Positions 19,720 through 26,522 of a DNA stretch of 64,000 nt are shown here, piece by piece. The translations under genes and the position numbers were made by a program. The DNA is from Polystyrenella longa (GTDB lineage: Bacteria; Planctomycetota; Planctomycetia; Planctomycetales; Planctomycetaceae). Numbering within the stretch: the stretch's first letter is position 1; every line of letters starts with the position of its first letter. Below the pieces are notes generated by a model that saw only the letters and a program-made list of their open reading frames with translations, had not been told where the DNA came from and ran no database searches. The stretch spans positions 285,211-349,210 of the forward strand of contig NZ_CP036281.1 of NCBI RefSeq assembly GCF_007750395.1, in the 5' to 3' direction.

Positions 19720-19961
19720 CAAGACAAAATCTGGCTCTTTGAATATCAATCGAGTCTTATCTGAAGCCAAAAATTGCGTCCTCTCTCATTTTCGTAATCG
19801 AAAATGATCATCTCAACTTGTGGATATCTTCCATCTCCGTAACAATTTACGCGACCATTCGCGGAGAAATGTACTGAGAGAACCGGTAGTACTCGCGCTC
19901 ACTCGGCTCGGTTCAAACGGTCACGGCCGATTCTTTTCGCCATCGGTGGAAGGAGCACGTC

Positions 19962-22037
19962 ATGACCAGGAGGATGATGATGGAATTGATGCAGCAAATT
20001 ATTGACGACAAGCTTTTCCTGCTTGATCTCGACGCACGTGATATGAAAAGCGTGCTCGAGCAGACAGTCCAGTATATCGTCGATCATGATCATGTTGAGG
20101 AAGCTCATCAGACCGCTTTGCTGGAAAGTCTGATGGAGCGGGAACGAATTCGCTCGACGGCCATTGGGCACGCAGTTGCGGTTCCCCACGCCTACCTGGA
20201 GGGCGTCCCCCGTCCAATGGTGGTCTTCGTTCGTCTGAAACACTCCCTCAACCTGGGTGCTCCCGACCGAATTCCCACCCGATTTGTCTGCGTATTACTT
20301 GGTCCGCCCAATGCGGTTCAGGAACATCTGGATGCGCTGACTTTAATCGCTCAGCTGATGTCGGACGATGAGTTCCGTTATGAAGCGGGAGCGGCTCTGA
20401 ATGAACAGCAACTGGCTGATGCCTTTCAGCATTTTGTTCTGCGTAATTCGCCCGAGGCGAGTGCTCAGGCCAAAATACCGGAAGGAATGCATTTTTCCGG
20501 GAAATTCCTCGGAGGAATCATCCAGGACGTGCAACGTCGTGTGCCACATTACGTGAGTGACTTTGTCGATGGGTTGAATGCCAAGACGATCGCGTCCTCT
20601 GTCTTCCTGTTCTTTGCCTGCCTGGCTCCGGCGATTACCTTCGGCGGGATTATGGGACAGCAGACCGATGGCAGTATCGGTGCCGTGGAGATGCTGGTTG
20701 CGACCGCCGCTTGCGGCGTGATCTACGCGCTAATCGGTGGACAACCGATGACGATTCTCGGTGGGATCGGTCCGATGCTCGTCTTCACCAAGATTTTGTA
20801 TGACTTATGCCAGAGTTGGGATGTCCAGTTTCTGTCTGCTTATGCCTGGGTTGGTTTCTGGACGGCTGGTTTTCTGTTTCTTTTCGCAGTGACTGAAGCA
20901 AGTTGTCTGATGCGCTTCTTTACGCGCTTTACGGATGAAATCTTCGCCGCGCTGATGTCTCTCATCTTCATTTATGAATCTGTGCGCAATCTGCTCGCCA
21001 TCTTTAATGAAGGATTCGAGAACGGGGGCCGGTCACACGACACCTCATTCCTGTCACTTCTCCTCGCACTCGGCACATTCTATATCGCCATGTCGTTAAT
21101 GCGAATGCGACGGAGTCGGTATCTGGTTCCGTATATTCGAGAGTTCCTGGCCGATTTTGGTCCTGCTATCGCGATGGGCATCATGATCGCGATAGCCTGG
21201 ATGTGGAGTGGTGAAGTCGAACTTCATAAATTAACCGCCCCGGCCGGATTTAATACCACTTCGGGTCGCTCTTGGTTGGTTAATCCCTTTGATACACCCG
21301 GTTGGCTGCGTATGGCGGCGGCGGGACCGGCTCTGCTGGCGGCATTATTGATCGCGTTATCACAGAATATTACTTCTCGTCTTCTTAACAGCCCTGACCT
21401 CAAAATGAAGAAGGGGTCTGCCTATCATTACGACCTGCTGTTAATCGGTTTGATGGTGGGCGTCTGTTCGCTGTTCGGACTTCCCTGGCTTGTCGCGGCG
21501 ACGGTTCGATCACTGGCCCATGTTCGGGCACTGGCGACAGTCGAAGAAGTGGTCTCTCCCAATGCTGAAACCAAAGAGCAGGTGATTCACGTCAATGAAA
21601 ACCGTCTGACTGGTCTGGTGATCCATGTCTTTATCGGCTTCTCAATACTCTTATTGCCTTACCTACAGATTACACCTCTGTCTGTCCTGTATGGTCTCTT
21701 CCTGTATATGGGTGTGGTTTCTCTGTTTGGGAATCAGTTCTTCGAACGACTGGGTCTACTGGTGATGGATTCGAATCTCTATCCCCAAACCCACTACATG
21801 CGCCGCGTTCCTCCCAGAACGATTCACCGCTTTACCATCATTCAGCTTGCCTGTCTGACGGTGCTCTGTTTGGTCAACCTCAGCGATAAACAGTACCTGA
21901 AGATCCTCTTCCCGCTCTTCATCGCTCTGTTGGTTCCCGTCCGTCTATTAATGAACAAGCTGTTCCAACGCGACCACCTACTCGCGCTGGACGCCGATGA
22001 AGAACCGAAGGAAGAAGAGATGCAGTGGGCAGGGTGA
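19962..22037 (+). CDS. SLC4-type bicarbonate/anion transporter fused to an N-terminal PTS EIIA domain
   Basis: A 691-residue two-domain protein. Residues 8-160 are a PTS EIIA-type domain (fructose/Ntr class): RERIRSTAIGHAVAVPHA carries the phosphorylatable His76. After a linker, residues 178-655 form a multi-span HCO3_cotransp domain (PF00955); GGIIQDVQRRVPHYVSDFVD, ACLAPAITFGGIMGQQT and IGGQPMTILGGIGPMLVF correspond closely to the band 3/SLC4 signature blocks. The likely role is bicarbonate or anion uptake or exchange under control of a phosphorelay. The start at 19962 has GGAAGGAG seven bases upstream. No PTS gene lies next to it. The physical fusion is certain from one uninterrupted frame; the regulation is inference. 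Confidence 0.88.
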   Translation: MTRRMMMELMQQIIDDKLFLLDLDARDMKSVLEQTVQYIVDHDHVEEAHQTALLESLMERERIRSTAIGHAVAVPHAYLEGVPRPMVVFVRLKHSLNLGAPDRIPTRFVCVLLGPPNAVQEHLDALTLIAQLMSDDEFRYEAGAALNEQQLADAFQHFVLRNSPEASAQAKIPEGMHFSGKFLGGIIQDVQRRVPHYVSDFVDGLNAKTIASSVFLFFACLAPAITFGGIMGQQTDGSIGAVEMLVATAACGVIYALIGGQPMTILGGIGPMLVFTKILYDLCQSWDVQFLSAYAWVGFWTAGFLFLFAVTEASCLMRFFTRFTDEIFAALMSLIFIYESVRNLLAIFNEGFENGGRSHDTSFLSLLLALGTFYIAMSLMRMRRSRYLVPYIREFLADFGPAIAMGIMIAIAWMWSGEVELHKLTAPAGFNTTSGRSWLVNPFDTPGWLRMAAAGPALLAALLIALSQNITSRLLNSPDLKMKKGSAYHYDLLLIGLMVGVCSLFGLPWLVAATVRSLAHVRALATVEEVVSPNAETKEQVIHVNENRLTGLVIHVFIGFSILLLPYLQITPLSVLYGLFLYMGVVSLFGNQFFERLGLLVMDSNLYPQTHYMRRVPPRTIHRFTIIQLACLTVLCLVNLSDKQYLKILFPLFIALLVPVRLLMNKLFQRDHLLALDADEEPKEEEMQWAG

Positions 22038-22260: not shown

Positions 22261-23208
22261 TCAGCCCCGTGGGTGATGGGCCGAATGCACGTTCTTGAGA
22301 CGGGTGTGGTCGACGTGGGTGTAGATTTGCGTTGTGCTGATGTTGGCGTGGCCGAGGAGTTCCTGCAGGGCGCGGATTTCGGCTCCACGGGCCAGCATGT
22401 GGGTCGCGAAACTATGTCGGAGGGTGTGCGGGCTGATATTGCCTTTCGCTCCGATTCGAGTGGCGTACCGCTTAACCATGATCCAGACGACGTCTCTAGT
22501 CAGCTTCTTCCCGGATCGGGTCACGAAGAGATAGCCTGAATCTTCGCGACGGGTCATGGGGGGGCGTTCGAACTTCAGATATTTTTTGAGTGCCGTGATC
22601 GCTCGCGGGTTCAAATTCACCATCCGCTCTTTACTCCCCTTACCGAGGCAGCGGCAATAAGCTTCTTCCAGGTAAAGATCGCGGAGCTTCAAGCCGGTGA
22701 GTTCCGACGCACGGCATCCGGTGGCATAGAGTACAGAAAGGATCGCTTTGTCGCGAAGAGGGTAGGCGTCTTCGTGGTTGGGCGCTTCGAGCAGCTGGTC
22801 GACACGCTCCGGGCTGAGGACAGATGGAAGTTTCTGAGCCAGCTTAGGTGAATTAATCAGTTCCGCTTTGCTTTCGAGGATCACCCCTTCCAGTACCATA
22901 TAGCGGAAGAACATCTTGATGGAGATCAAGTGTCGAGCAATGCTGGTTGCGCTCAGGTTAGTATCGCGCAGGTGCTCAATGTAGCGAGAGAACAGATTCA
23001 GTTCGATCTCATTGATCTGGTTCGGGCCTTCGACTTTGTACCAGTCGACAAAACGGCCGACGTCGGTCCGGTAGGCCGAAATCGTGTTTTTTGCCATCCC
23101 GCATTCTGCTTCCAGATAATACAGAAACGGGTCGTAATGACGACTAAGATCCTGTCGAGGTTCTGTCGTGAATTTCGAACCGGGCGGTGGTCGCTTGCGG
23201 GGTGGCAT
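22261..23208 (-). CDS. xerD: Tyrosine recombinase XerD (site-specific, chromosome dimer resolution)
   Basis: Resolves chromosome dimers at dif together with XerC. The 315-residue protein has an N-terminal SAM-like core-binding domain (20-110) and a C-terminal catalytic domain with the full set: Arg166 (TGCRASELTGL), Lys193 (GKGSKER), His261-x-x-Arg264 (HTLRHSF), His287 (LGHANI) and nucleophile Tyr296 (TQIYTH). The start at 23208 has AGGAGG eight bases upstream; the reading frame extends to 23433, but that extension has no such site and no family similarity. It lies 279 bases downstream of the UvrD-like helicase on the same strand. XerC-type function is the alternative. Confidence 0.92.
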   Translation of the reverse strand: MPPRKRPPPGSKFTTEPRQDLSRHYDPFLYYLEAECGMAKNTISAYRTDVGRFVDWYKVEGPNQINEIELNLFSRYIEHLRDTNLSATSIARHLISIKMFFRYMVLEGVILESKAELINSPKLAQKLPSVLSPERVDQLLEAPNHEDAYPLRDKAILSVLYATGCRASELTGLKLRDLYLEEAYCRCLGKGSKERMVNLNPRAITALKKYLKFERPPMTRREDSGYLFVTRSGKKLTRDVVWIMVKRYATRIGAKGNISPHTLRHSFATHMLARGAEIRALQELLGHANISTTQIYTHVDHTRLKNVHSAHHPRG

Positions 23209-23486
23209 ACTTTCGATCCTCCTGAATTCGTTCAAATTAGTCGGTCTACAGTTAATATCGAACGAAATTCGAATATTGGAACCACGAAATACAGTAAATA
23301 GACCAAAAAGAGTACAGAAAGAGTTGGTTGGAACAATCACCTCGAATGGGCCCTGTCCAACAGTCGCATAAAAAGGATGATCGAATCGACCGGTGAAGCC
23401 AATCCGGAAAATTCGCCCATACTTCTCGCCCATATTTTATTGTATTGAGAATCTATCGTCGTGAGGCCGTTTCGAACTACTCCGAA

Positions 23487-25781
23487 TCATCGCATGCCGA
23501 TGGGTTGCAGGGGGCAGCGATCGGCTCGGAAGGTTTTGCCGACTTCTCCGCTGACGAAGTCGACGGTCACGGTCGCTTTGGAAGTTGGACCGGAGACGTG
23601 GACGATTTTGCCGCGACCGTAGCGGGGATGACGGACCTGCATACCGACATCGAAATGAAAACTTCCCGGATCGAGTGGGGGCTCTTCCGCAGAGGAACTG
23701 TTCAAGTCACTCGGTTGATTTGCTTTTAAAGCGTCCAGTTTGTCTCCCAGCAGATGCAGATTGTCGACGGTGATTTCCTGAGAGAGTTCGTTCCAGTCGT
23801 GTGCGGGTTCTTTAGGGCGACTCCAGTCCCGATCGTATTGTGACGAGGTGGACGTCCCAAAGCCGGAGGCCATATTCAGTTGTTCGAGCGACATCTCCCG
23901 CACAAAATCGGATGGGATCGTATGCAGTGTTTTCCCACGGAAAGCACGTTGGCGCGTTTGTGTCAGGACGAGGCCACGTTCGGCGCGGGTGATACCGACA
24001 AAGAGCAAACGGCGTTCTTCTTCGTATTCGCTGGCGTCGTTGGTTTTGAGTGCCCGCTCGTGCGGGATCAGATTCTGCTCGACTCCAATGATAAAAACGT
24101 GAGGAAACTCCAGGCCTTTGGCCGCATGCATGGTCATCAACGTGACCTGTCCTGCCTCGGAATCGATGGCATCGAGATCGGAGGCAAGTGAGGTCGATTC
24201 GAGAAATCCTTCGAGAGTCGGATCGTCCGGGTTTTCTTTGTCGTACTGTCGGGCGACGGTCAGGAGCTCTTCGATGTTCGATGTCTGTTCGTAATCCGCT
24301 TCCGTAAACTTCATCCCTTTCAAGTAACCGATGCGATCGATCACGGAGCGAAGTAATTGTTCCATTGAACCGGAGTCGGCCAGAGAGAAGTGATCCATCA
24401 ATTCGCCGAATTTTTTAAGCGCGAACTTCGCCCTCTTGTTCAAGGTCGGATGCTCTTCGACATGGTGGATCGCTTCTGTCATGGTCCACCGGTTCTGTGC
24501 TGCCCACCGGCGAAGTTTGTTCTGTGTCTGTTTACCAATACCGCGTGTCGGGCGATTTACGATTCGGGCGAAAGCGGCGTAGTCGTCTGGATTACAAATC
24601 AGACGGAGATACGACAGCATGTCTTTGATTTCTGCCCGCTCGTAGAAAGCGACCCCTGCGGCAACCTGGTAGGGGATTTGCCAACGCGTCAACGCGAGTT
24701 CAAGCTCCCGTGAGAGCGCGTTCACCCGATAAAAAATGGCGACGTCCGACCAGTTGACCCCTTCGCTTTCTGCCAGTTGTTTGATCGACGCGGCAACCAT
24801 GTCCGCTTCTTCTCGCCCATCGGTATAGGTGTGAAGTTCGACCGGTTTACCGACATCGTTGTTGGTGAACAGTTCCTTGGGTTTACGTTGGACATTGTGG
24901 GCGATTAATTCATCGGCCGCTTTTAGAATCGATTTAGTACTGCGGAAGTTGTCCTGCAGACGAACGAGTTGCGATTCAGGATAGTCTCGTTCAAAGCGGA
25001 GGATATTATCGATGCGGGCGCCACGCCAACCATAGATCGACTGGTCCGGGTCGCCCGTGGCACAGATGTTCTGTTGATCATGGGACAGCATGCGGATCAA
25101 CTGGTACTGGGCCAGGTTGGTGTCCTGGTATTCGTCGACCAGCGTGTATTGATAATGCTCGTCGATTTGGGCGCGGAGTTCGTTGTTCTCGGCCAATAGT
25201 TGGACGACGTGCATTAACAGGTCATCGAAATCGACGGCATTGGAACGGAGCAGCAGCTTCTGGTATTCGGGGAAGGCCCGCGCGACGACCGCCTGATAAT
25301 GGTCGCCCGTGCTTTCGTTGAAATTTCGAGCGAACTGATTTGCCGAAACGAGATCGTTCTTCGCCTTACTGATCTGGTTTAGAATGTTCCCCGGCGGGTA
25401 ATGGACGGGGTCGATATCGAGATCGTTCAGGACCTGTTTGAGGACCGATTTCTGATCGGACGTGCTGAAGATAGTAAAGTTCGACTTCAAACCAATCATG
25501 CGGGCGTTGCGGCGGAGCAGGTAGGCGCAGAATTTGTGAAAGGTGCTGATCCACATTTGCCGACCGGGAACCAGTCGACGAACCCGGTCGGACATTTCGC
25601 GGGCCGCTTTGTTGGTGAAGGTGATCGCCAGAATCCGTCGCGGATCGACTCCGCGGTCGACCAATCGGGCGATGCGATGGGTGATCACGCGAGTTTTTCC
25701 TGAACCGGGACCAGCCAGTACGAGCAGAGGCCCAAACTGATGTTCGACGGCGGTTTGTTGTGATTCTGTGAGTCGCTCCAT
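23487..25781 (-). CDS. UvrD/PcrA-type superfamily 1 DNA helicase
   Basis: An ATP-dependent 3'-5' helicase for nucleotide-excision and mismatch repair and for clearing recombination intermediates. The 764-residue protein has the Q-motif LTESQQTAVEH (4-14), Walker A AGPGSGKT (23-30), the Walker B-type DEYQDTNLAQYQLIRML, GDPDQSIYGWRGA, RLQDNFRST and, near 560, VTLMTMHAAKGLEFPHVF with RRLLFVGITRAERGL. The C-terminal GMQVRHPRYGRGKIVHVSG matches the Tudor-like tail of PcrA, which contacts RNA polymerase. The ATG at 25781 begins the conserved MERLTESQ; a longer frame to 25838 is unlikely. Confidence 0.94.
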   Translation of the reverse strand: MERLTESQQTAVEHQFGPLLVLAGPGSGKTRVITHRIARLVDRGVDPRRILAITFTNKAAREMSDRVRRLVPGRQMWISTFHKFCAYLLRRNARMIGLKSNFTIFSTSDQKSVLKQVLNDLDIDPVHYPPGNILNQISKAKNDLVSANQFARNFNESTGDHYQAVVARAFPEYQKLLLRSNAVDFDDLLMHVVQLLAENNELRAQIDEHYQYTLVDEYQDTNLAQYQLIRMLSHDQQNICATGDPDQSIYGWRGARIDNILRFERDYPESQLVRLQDNFRSTKSILKAADELIAHNVQRKPKELFTNNDVGKPVELHTYTDGREEADMVAASIKQLAESEGVNWSDVAIFYRVNALSRELELALTRWQIPYQVAAGVAFYERAEIKDMLSYLRLICNPDDYAAFARIVNRPTRGIGKQTQNKLRRWAAQNRWTMTEAIHHVEEHPTLNKRAKFALKKFGELMDHFSLADSGSMEQLLRSVIDRIGYLKGMKFTEADYEQTSNIEELLTVARQYDKENPDDPTLEGFLESTSLASDLDAIDSEAGQVTLMTMHAAKGLEFPHVFIIGVEQNLIPHERALKTNDASEYEEERRLLFVGITRAERGLVLTQTRQRAFRGKTLHTIPSDFVREMSLEQLNMASGFGTSTSSQYDRDWSRPKEPAHDWNELSQEITVDNLHLLGDKLDALKANQPSDLNSSSAEEPPLDPGSFHFDVGMQVRHPRYGRGKIVHVSGPTSKATVTVDFVSGEVGKTFRADRCPLQPIGMR

Positions 25782-26522
25782 CAATCGACCTGTTTTTGCA
25801 ATTCCATTCGATTTTTGAAAATGGTGTCCCGATTCCACCGAAAGGCTGTTTTCATGCTGCCTGCATGCATTTCGGTTGTAAGCGATGCAGGGTGGGGACG
25901 TCCACTCAATTCGATTCGGGAACTGACGAAAAAGAACCTGTCATCTCTGGGAATAGGAGTTTTGGGATATCTTAAGAGTTTACGAATTCAGAAAAGCCCC
26001 CATCGTACCGCAATTGTTATTTTGCAGGTCCAATTATAGAATCAGGGTAATCGAAGCAGAATAGGCAGAGTGTTCTTTTGCCGATGCTGGATAAGAATGT
26101 CTTTGTTCAGCGAAGTATTCGCGAAAGATCACGGGTTTGATTTGAATAGAAATTCGACATGTTCACTCGCATGAGCAGTTTGGATTCGAGAGCCACTATT
26201 TTCGCCTCGATTGTATTAGCGAGCCCCTCAAAATTTACCCAACTGTTACCCCTCGATTCTGGTTGGCCTCTTTTCGGGACTTCACCAGTGGAGACAGACT
26301 TTCCTTTCGTCTGCCTTTCTAGAAGCCCGATAATTCCGATATTGTCTGTTGCGCAATCACCTATGACAGTGCAACAGCGTCGGGGCAAGCCAGGTTTCGT
26401 TCTCCGTGAGAGAAGAAACCCCTCTGAGGTGACAGTTACTTCACGCAACACTGTTACGTCATACCACACAGCTACTCCCCGTAGCTTCATGACGCCAAGA
26501 CATCGAGGAACAAGGAGCAGGA
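25782..26522. other. Intergenic region between the helicase and the 733-residue exported orphan
   Basis: About 740 bases of divergent upstream DNA. Overlapping frames on both strands (26107-26490 minus, 26159-26677 plus) have Ser/Thr/Arg-rich translations without domain character and are not accepted. GACAGACTTTCCTTTCGTCTG near 26291-26311 can form a small hairpin. Promoters for both flanking genes must lie here. Confidence 0.4.

Follow-up and report, generated by a model that had tools for sequence, protein, structure and literature searches.

Among described proteins, the closest to the one reported here are the animal SLC4 transporters (AE1/band 3, AE2, NBCe1 and SLC4A11), whose cytoplasmic domain has already been reported to resemble the EIIA proteins of the PTS in structure (PMC4664831 and PMC5608694), and one fish slc4a11a is annotated with a PTS_EIIA_2 domain in PMC7692064. 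Bacterial SLC4-like proteins, one of which, from Nitrococcus mobilis, is mentioned in PMC8738779, are said to lack a cytoplasmic domain in a 2015 review (PMC4664831). The other related system is PtsN (EIIA-Ntr), a free EIIA protein that is reported to act on K+ transporters and in E. coli, when unphosphorylated, to inhibit the K+/H+ antiporter YcgO (PMC13104625). We found no description of a bacterial EIIA-SLC4 fusion in the open-licence literature, as judged by titles and the beginnings of abstracts, and the architecture may well be on record in sequence databases.

Such a fusion is encoded in the planctomycete Polystyrenella longa, in a 64,000-nucleotide stretch of its genome (the window; contig NZ_CP036281.1, positions 285,211 to 349,210). 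As the initial annotation had proposed, one uninterrupted 691-aa frame joins an EIIA domain to an SLC4-type transporter (Table 1), both domains scoring over their Pfam cut-offs: PTS_EIIA_2 (PF00359) at 82.4 bits (cut-off 27, E 4.1e-23) and HCO3_cotransp (PF00955) at 583 bits (cut-off 27, E 8.9e-175) in two stretches. Band_3_cyto (PF07565) also matches the N-terminus, at 50.7 bits (cut-off 34.3, E 2.6e-13), its best stretch spanning only positions 203-281 of the 294 in the profile. Two TIGRFAM models are matched under their cut-offs, the anion exchange protein model TIGR00834 at 563 bits (cut-off 599.45) and the PtsN equivalog TIGR01419 at 60.2 bits, far under its 138.7. When the protein was searched against the PDB with phmmer, human AE2 came out on top (E 1.6e-123, 417 bits), followed by AE3, the NBCs, AE1 and SLC4A11, with plant BOR1 (203 bits) and yeast Bor1p (145 bits) much lower, and PtsN structures matched the N-terminus. 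The animal SLC4 proteins listed in our opening share with the bacterial one both the domain order and a full-length match over the SLC4 membrane domain; the VTVLP dimerisation motif, named in PMC5608694, is not recognisable by eye in the short bacterial linker.

Table 1. Features of the EIIA-SLC4 gene of P. longa, in window coordinates
Feature	Position	Strand	Basis
EIIA-SLC4 fusion gene, 691 aa	19962..22037	+	open frame without internal stop; Pfam domains
Shine-Dalgarno-like AAGGAG, ATG 6 nt further on	19950..19955	+	read from sequence
PTS EIIA domain (PTS_EIIA_2), residues 13-156; Band_3_cyto also matches residues 83-159	19998..20429	+	
Short linker (about 20 residues) from EIIA to membrane domain	20430..20486	+	domain borders
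SLC4 membrane domain (HCO3_cotransp), about residues 176-680	20487..22001	+	Pfam, phmmer
His76 codon, predicted phospho-histidine (GHAVAVPH76A)	20187..20189	+	translation, EIIA alignment
His122 codon (EH122L), second conserved histidine	20325..20327	+	H in 60/65 rows, gap 4, T 1
Ser467 codon, at AE1 Glu681 position	21360..21362	+	alignment of 65 rows
Arg516 codon, at AE1 Arg730 position	21507..21509	+	R in 62/65 rows, gap 2, P 1

An assembly chimaera or a chance joining could be ruled out, because the identical architecture recurs in an 87%-identical homologue on a Planctomycetaceae MAG contig and in many planctomycete genomes. EIIA-SLC4 is a real, recurrent bacterial family. At the level of the phylum, 13 of 392 genomes had PF00955 over cut-off (17 at E 0.001), as did 30 of 150 genomes of the family and 45 of 397 of the class. 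These three sets overlap, and loci were retrieved from every genome over this cut-off; four further planctomycete genomes (L019-L022) hold a PF00955 match under it. Several genomes carry at least two EIIA-SLC4 copies: two or three are present in, for example, G421, G448 and G465 (loci L084, L085, L091, L092, L095 and L096), G421 holding two on a single 12-kb contig. One 275-aa frame, L109 (G164:C485), combines part of the EIIA with a stretch from the later portion of the membrane domain and is a deletion remnant or a misassembly.

Downstream of the P. longa gene, on the opposite strand (window 22261-25838), lie ordinary neighbours, an XerD-type recombinase (over cut-off) and a PcrA/UvrD-type helicase. 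Across the fetched loci, no operon partner conserved for the whole family was seen beyond the carbonic anhydrase and SulP cases described below: the three largest neighbour clusters (56, 55 and 17 loci) seem to be the EIIA-SLC4 gene read antisense or in an alternate frame, and those that follow in size (9 and 7 loci) resemble families widespread among planctomycetes. Scans of plasmid and phage sequences matched 139 records and 1 record respectively, none covering 80% of the query at one place, and the 21 matches listed cover 13-23% of it, at the EIIA end. A scan of viral contigs with the EIIA alignment gave 49 stretches fitting the pattern, of which 0 were confirmed.

The fused EIIA is specifically akin in sequence to the band 3 cytoplasmic domain. 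At E ≤0.001, all 61 SLC4-fused EIIAs matched PTS_EIIA_2 and 60 of them also Band_3_cyto (best E 5.7e-29), whereas the 42 other planctomycete EIIAs (29 of PtsN type, 3 from P. longa itself and 10 fused to different domains) matched PTS_EIIA_2 in 42 cases and Band_3_cyto in none. A profile built from the fused set reached PtsN in the PDB at E 4.1e-28, NBCe1 at 2.3e-21 (79.5 bits), AE2 at 4.9e-21 (78.5 bits) and AE1 at 1.4e-17, with SLC4A11 found weakly (E 0.008); the control-set profile reached PtsN at 2.9e-32, its best SLC4 row being AE2 at E 1.4e-4 (24.5 bits); another four to six SLC4 chains scored E 0.03-0.44, as distant kinship would predict. NBCe1 and AE2 match the fused-set profile in two stretches, between which 77 and 98 of their residues, respectively, replace 15 and 19 profile positions that hold the phospho-His loop.

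An EIIA-like fold, which the initial annotation had linked to that of band 3, was also predicted. Of five models of the EIIA part built from two sequences, the best (mean pLDDT 68.6; 40-44 for the other four) aligned in VIA-align with SLC4A11 at Z 13.4 (rmsd 3.5, 146 aligned), PtsN at Z 13.0 (2.9, 139), AE2 at Z 12.7 (3.9, 161) and AE1 at Z 12.3 (3.3, 155), Z values within 1 of each other counting as ties. Foldseek likewise returned AE2, PtsN and band 3 intermixed in its top rows. The full-length model, again from two sequences, is too poor to judge contact between the domains (pLDDT 37.7). With the animal N-terminal domains the fused EIIA thus has in common a predicted fold (that of SLC4A11, AE2 and AE1) and a specific sequence similarity, and with PtsN the EIIA_2 family, the RE and PH positions and the same fold; it differs from PtsN in its covalent fusion to a transporter and from all 42 other EIIAs in matching Band_3_cyto.

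The predicted phospho-histidine in GHAVAVPHA, which had been described as kept in the P. longa protein, proved to be kept across the family. By eye, P75-H76 lines up with the PH in PtsN from E. coli (GNGIAIPHG), and His occupies this column in all 59 readable rows, the window included, of an unselected set of 65 rows of at least 400 aa (window included; the duplicate L100 and the triple fusion L049 excluded). Six rows are unreadable here: four (L086, L080, L048 and the second L084 copy) open only past the EIIA, at a contig end or close to one; L081 has a frame shift that leaves the PH in a neighbouring frame; and L052 is a planctomycete SLC4 frame without EIIA. In an alignment of 61 EIIAs, no variation occurs at I68, G69, P75, H76 and G114 and very little at R60, E61 and H122; this invariance is in part due to selection, because 60 of these sequences come from 63 locus matches picked by the pattern G.{5}PH (the window being the 61st). 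The three dropped were the fragment L081, the 5' part of L113 and a separate EIIA beside L113; one of the 61 includes a piece of membrane domain and is probably the rearranged L109 frame. The bacterial domain therefore keeps the loop that carries a large insert in NBCe1 and AE2, and the histidine that is replaced by Val in human AE2 and AE1 and by Gln in SLC4A11.

In the membrane domain, the AE1 Glu681 position holds Asp in 32 of the 65 rows, Ser in 15 (P. longa among them), Thr in 8, Glu in 6 and others in 4. The position of AE1 Arg730, which we take to be the anion-site arginine, keeps Arg in 62 of the 65 rows, in favour of an SLC4-type anion transporter; it is occupied by Leu in NBCn1, His in SLC4A11 and Gln in both BOR1 and Bor1p. 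Since P. longa has Ser467 at the first position and NBCn1 and SLC4A11 do without Arg at the second, neither coupling nor substrate can be read from these residues.

We next consider the trees, all of them unrooted and limited to planctomycete rows, human SLC4 proteins, BOR proteins and two proteobacterial PtsN. A first EIIA tree of 53 rows (21 of the 61 fused EIIAs, 28 of the 42 others and 4 human domains) has a single branch (support 98/95) that parts all 21 fused and all 4 human rows from all 28 other EIIAs. In a second tree of 51 rows, from which SLC4A11 and three long control rows were left out and to which the two proteobacterial PtsN were added, the 21 fused and 3 human rows grouped at 99/98; within them, human AE/NBC grouped with 18 of the 21 fused rows at 99/94, the three outside being those that appear as L045, L047 and L049 in the first tree, and an exclusive bacterial clade was not rejected (p-AU 0.204). 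Trees of the membrane domain (25 and 22 rows) set the BOR proteins apart and left about half of the inner forks below 80, so that the SLC4 phylogeny called for earlier is clear on the BOR proteins and not on the inner order. The p-AU values obtained there for animals as a single clade (0.027) and for planctomycetes (0.098) are read neither way because the SLC4A11 and BOR branches are long. The suggestion that the bacterial fusion reflects an ancestral arrangement thus gains support from the Band_3_cyto matches (60/61 against 0/42) and from these unrooted EIIA trees. Among the sequences sampled, EIIA-SLC4 comes closest, as judged by these comparisons, to the two-domain SLC4 proteins of animals, and one shared origin of the two architectures appears most likely.

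A phosphodonor for His76, whose absence would have counted against the initial annotation, is encoded in the P. longa genome. In its single 6.1-Mb contig we found one HPr match (69.5 bits) and one EI match (575.5 bits), both over cut-off, together with four EIIA_2 matches. A ptsN-like gene, HPr and EI adjoin each other behind an HPF gene, a cluster that recalls rpoN-hpf-ptsN-rapZ-npr of E. coli K-12; the ptsN-like product, at 80.2 bits, is also under the TIGR01419 cut-off of 138.7. Profile searches for HPr, EI and EIIA_2 found no further PTS gene within the window, and PTS_EIIC (searched with PF02378 only) gave 0 matches in the genome, the same search being positive in 7 of 14 controls. In PMC2405797, planctomycete EI falls in a group that, some Proteobacteria apart, lacks PTS transporters. 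Given the presence of EI, HPr and ptsN, the absence of PF02378 matches and this published grouping, the PTS of P. longa looks regulatory. Elsewhere in the genome (L055:6815-7534), an HTH_17 domain is fused to EIIA, perhaps as a PTS-controlled DNA-binding protein.

Gene context bears on the substrate. Of the 67 loci (688 kb), 5 have a beta-carbonic anhydrase fused to or near EIIA-SLC4, against an expectation of about 0.25 (Poisson P about 6e-6, a guide only, as the loci come from related genomes). The expectation derives from 34 matches in 95.4 Mb (15 genomes) and is again 0.25 (21 matches in 57.9 Mb) without the five genomes that had been picked for a nearby carbonic anhydrase. In L049 (12447-13889), beta-carbonic anhydrase (Pro_CA E 3.8e-45), EIIA and the start of SLC4 form one frame, inside which the contig ends; in L087, L092, L129 and L088 (the last cut by a contig end) the anhydrase gene lies near the fusion. 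None was found within the window or in the fetched stretch of the other 62 loci. L092, L128 and L129 each have a SulP transporter next to the fusion, that of L128 scoring 78.7 bits with the BicA model, far under its cut-off of 880; in L092 (692-6508), beta-carbonic anhydrase, SulP transporter and EIIA-SLC4 run on the same strand. The anhydrase fused or adjacent in five loci supports bicarbonate as the most likely substrate, as far as sequence and context can indicate it. PEP carboxylase was considered as a reason for PEP-gated bicarbonate uptake and rejected, no such gene having been found in the P. longa genome.

EIIA is joined to other ion transporters in the same class. Among ten EIIA frames picked for their length, six carry a Na+/H+ exchanger, three a c-di-AMP cyclase and one a CNNM domain. 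The six exchangers and the one CNNM-CBS protein (L171, L174-L178 and L180) resemble EIIA-SLC4 in linking EIIA to an ion transporter, but in them EIIA is C-terminal and does not match Band_3_cyto. In L172, L173 and L179, from three planctomycete genomes, EIIA accompanies a DacZ_P/DAC c-di-AMP cyclase, and PTS control of c-di-AMP is possible.

We consider it likely that EIIA-SLC4 is an SLC4-type transporter of an anion, most probably bicarbonate, with an N-terminal EIIA domain that works as phosphate acceptor in a regulatory PTS, and that it is the closest sampled relative of animal SLC4. PEP would phosphorylate EI, HPr would hand the phosphate on from EI to His76, and the contact of EIIA with the membrane domain would change with the phosphorylation of His76, such that transport would track the PEP state of the cell. 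By analogy with free PtsN, the unphosphorylated domain would probably restrain transport, both the sign and the physiology being guesses. We propose this relay because EIIA is fused to ion transporters in the class and PtsN is reported to inhibit YcgO. It is less probable, though worth some weight, that the bacterial EIIA is merely a structural or docking domain as in animals, either unphosphorylated or phosphorylated to no effect on transport: AE1 and AE2 are reported to transport without the N-terminal domain (PMC4664831), and L052, like the plant and fungal BOR proteins, shares the SLC4 membrane domain and has no EIIA. A catalytic site should not survive in a mere scaffold, however, and His76 is present in every readable row where AE2 and AE1 have Val and SLC4A11 has Gln. 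A transporter of borate or another anion, as in the BOR proteins, is rather improbable; BOR1 is among the PF00955 relatives and sequence gives no certain substrate, but phmmer scores drop from 417 bits for AE2 to 203 for BOR1 and 145 for Bor1p, BOR1 and Bor1p have Gln at the position where the bacterial family retains Arg, and carbonic anhydrase occurs as fusion partner and neighbour.

As to descent, the animal SLC4 cytoplasmic domain would be an EIIA in which the histidine of the active site has been lost and a large insert acquired next to it. The direction from bacteria to animals is argued for by the intact PTS site in bacteria and by the loss of a site being easier than its regain, a PTS not being known from eukaryotes. 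On balance, and with somewhat more reserve than for the relay, we favour a bacterial EIIA-SLC4 as the ancestor of the two-domain animal SLC4 proteins; the cytoplasmic domain of band 3 would then be a retired PTS phospho-acceptor, and planctomycetes would still run the original, PEP-state-controlled transporter. Given the 99/94 grouping with 18 of 21 fusion rows, a planctomycete-like donor may even have been the source of AE/NBC. That bacterial and animal SLC4 proteins gained EIIA-like N-terminal domains independently seems to us quite unlikely. These bacteria do have EIIA fused to proteins of several other types, and the BOR1 and Bor1p chains used, as well as one planctomycete SLC4, show no EIIA-like domain, but convergence leaves unaccounted the identical domain order, the Band_3_cyto matches confined to SLC4-fused EIIAs and the supported branches (98/95; 99/98) that join these with the human cytoplasmic domains. 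Least probable of all, to the point of being very hard to credit, is a move of the fusion from eukaryotes to planctomycetes: human AE/NBC do stand among planctomycete rows, membrane-domain support is weak and the trees are unrooted, yet the intact bacterial site would have had to be regained after descent through lineages not known to have a PTS, and at the active-site loop the space of 15 and 19 profile positions is taken up by 77 residues in NBCe1 and 98 in AE2.

A bacterial family that retains the intact site and is akin to the band 3 domain makes the origin of the cytoplasmic half of human SLC4 proteins testable, and EIIA-SLC4 offers a testable switch for bicarbonate transport. Together with the other EIIA fusions, it suggests a general device of bacteria with a regulatory PTS, in which relay domains are wired directly onto ion transporters.
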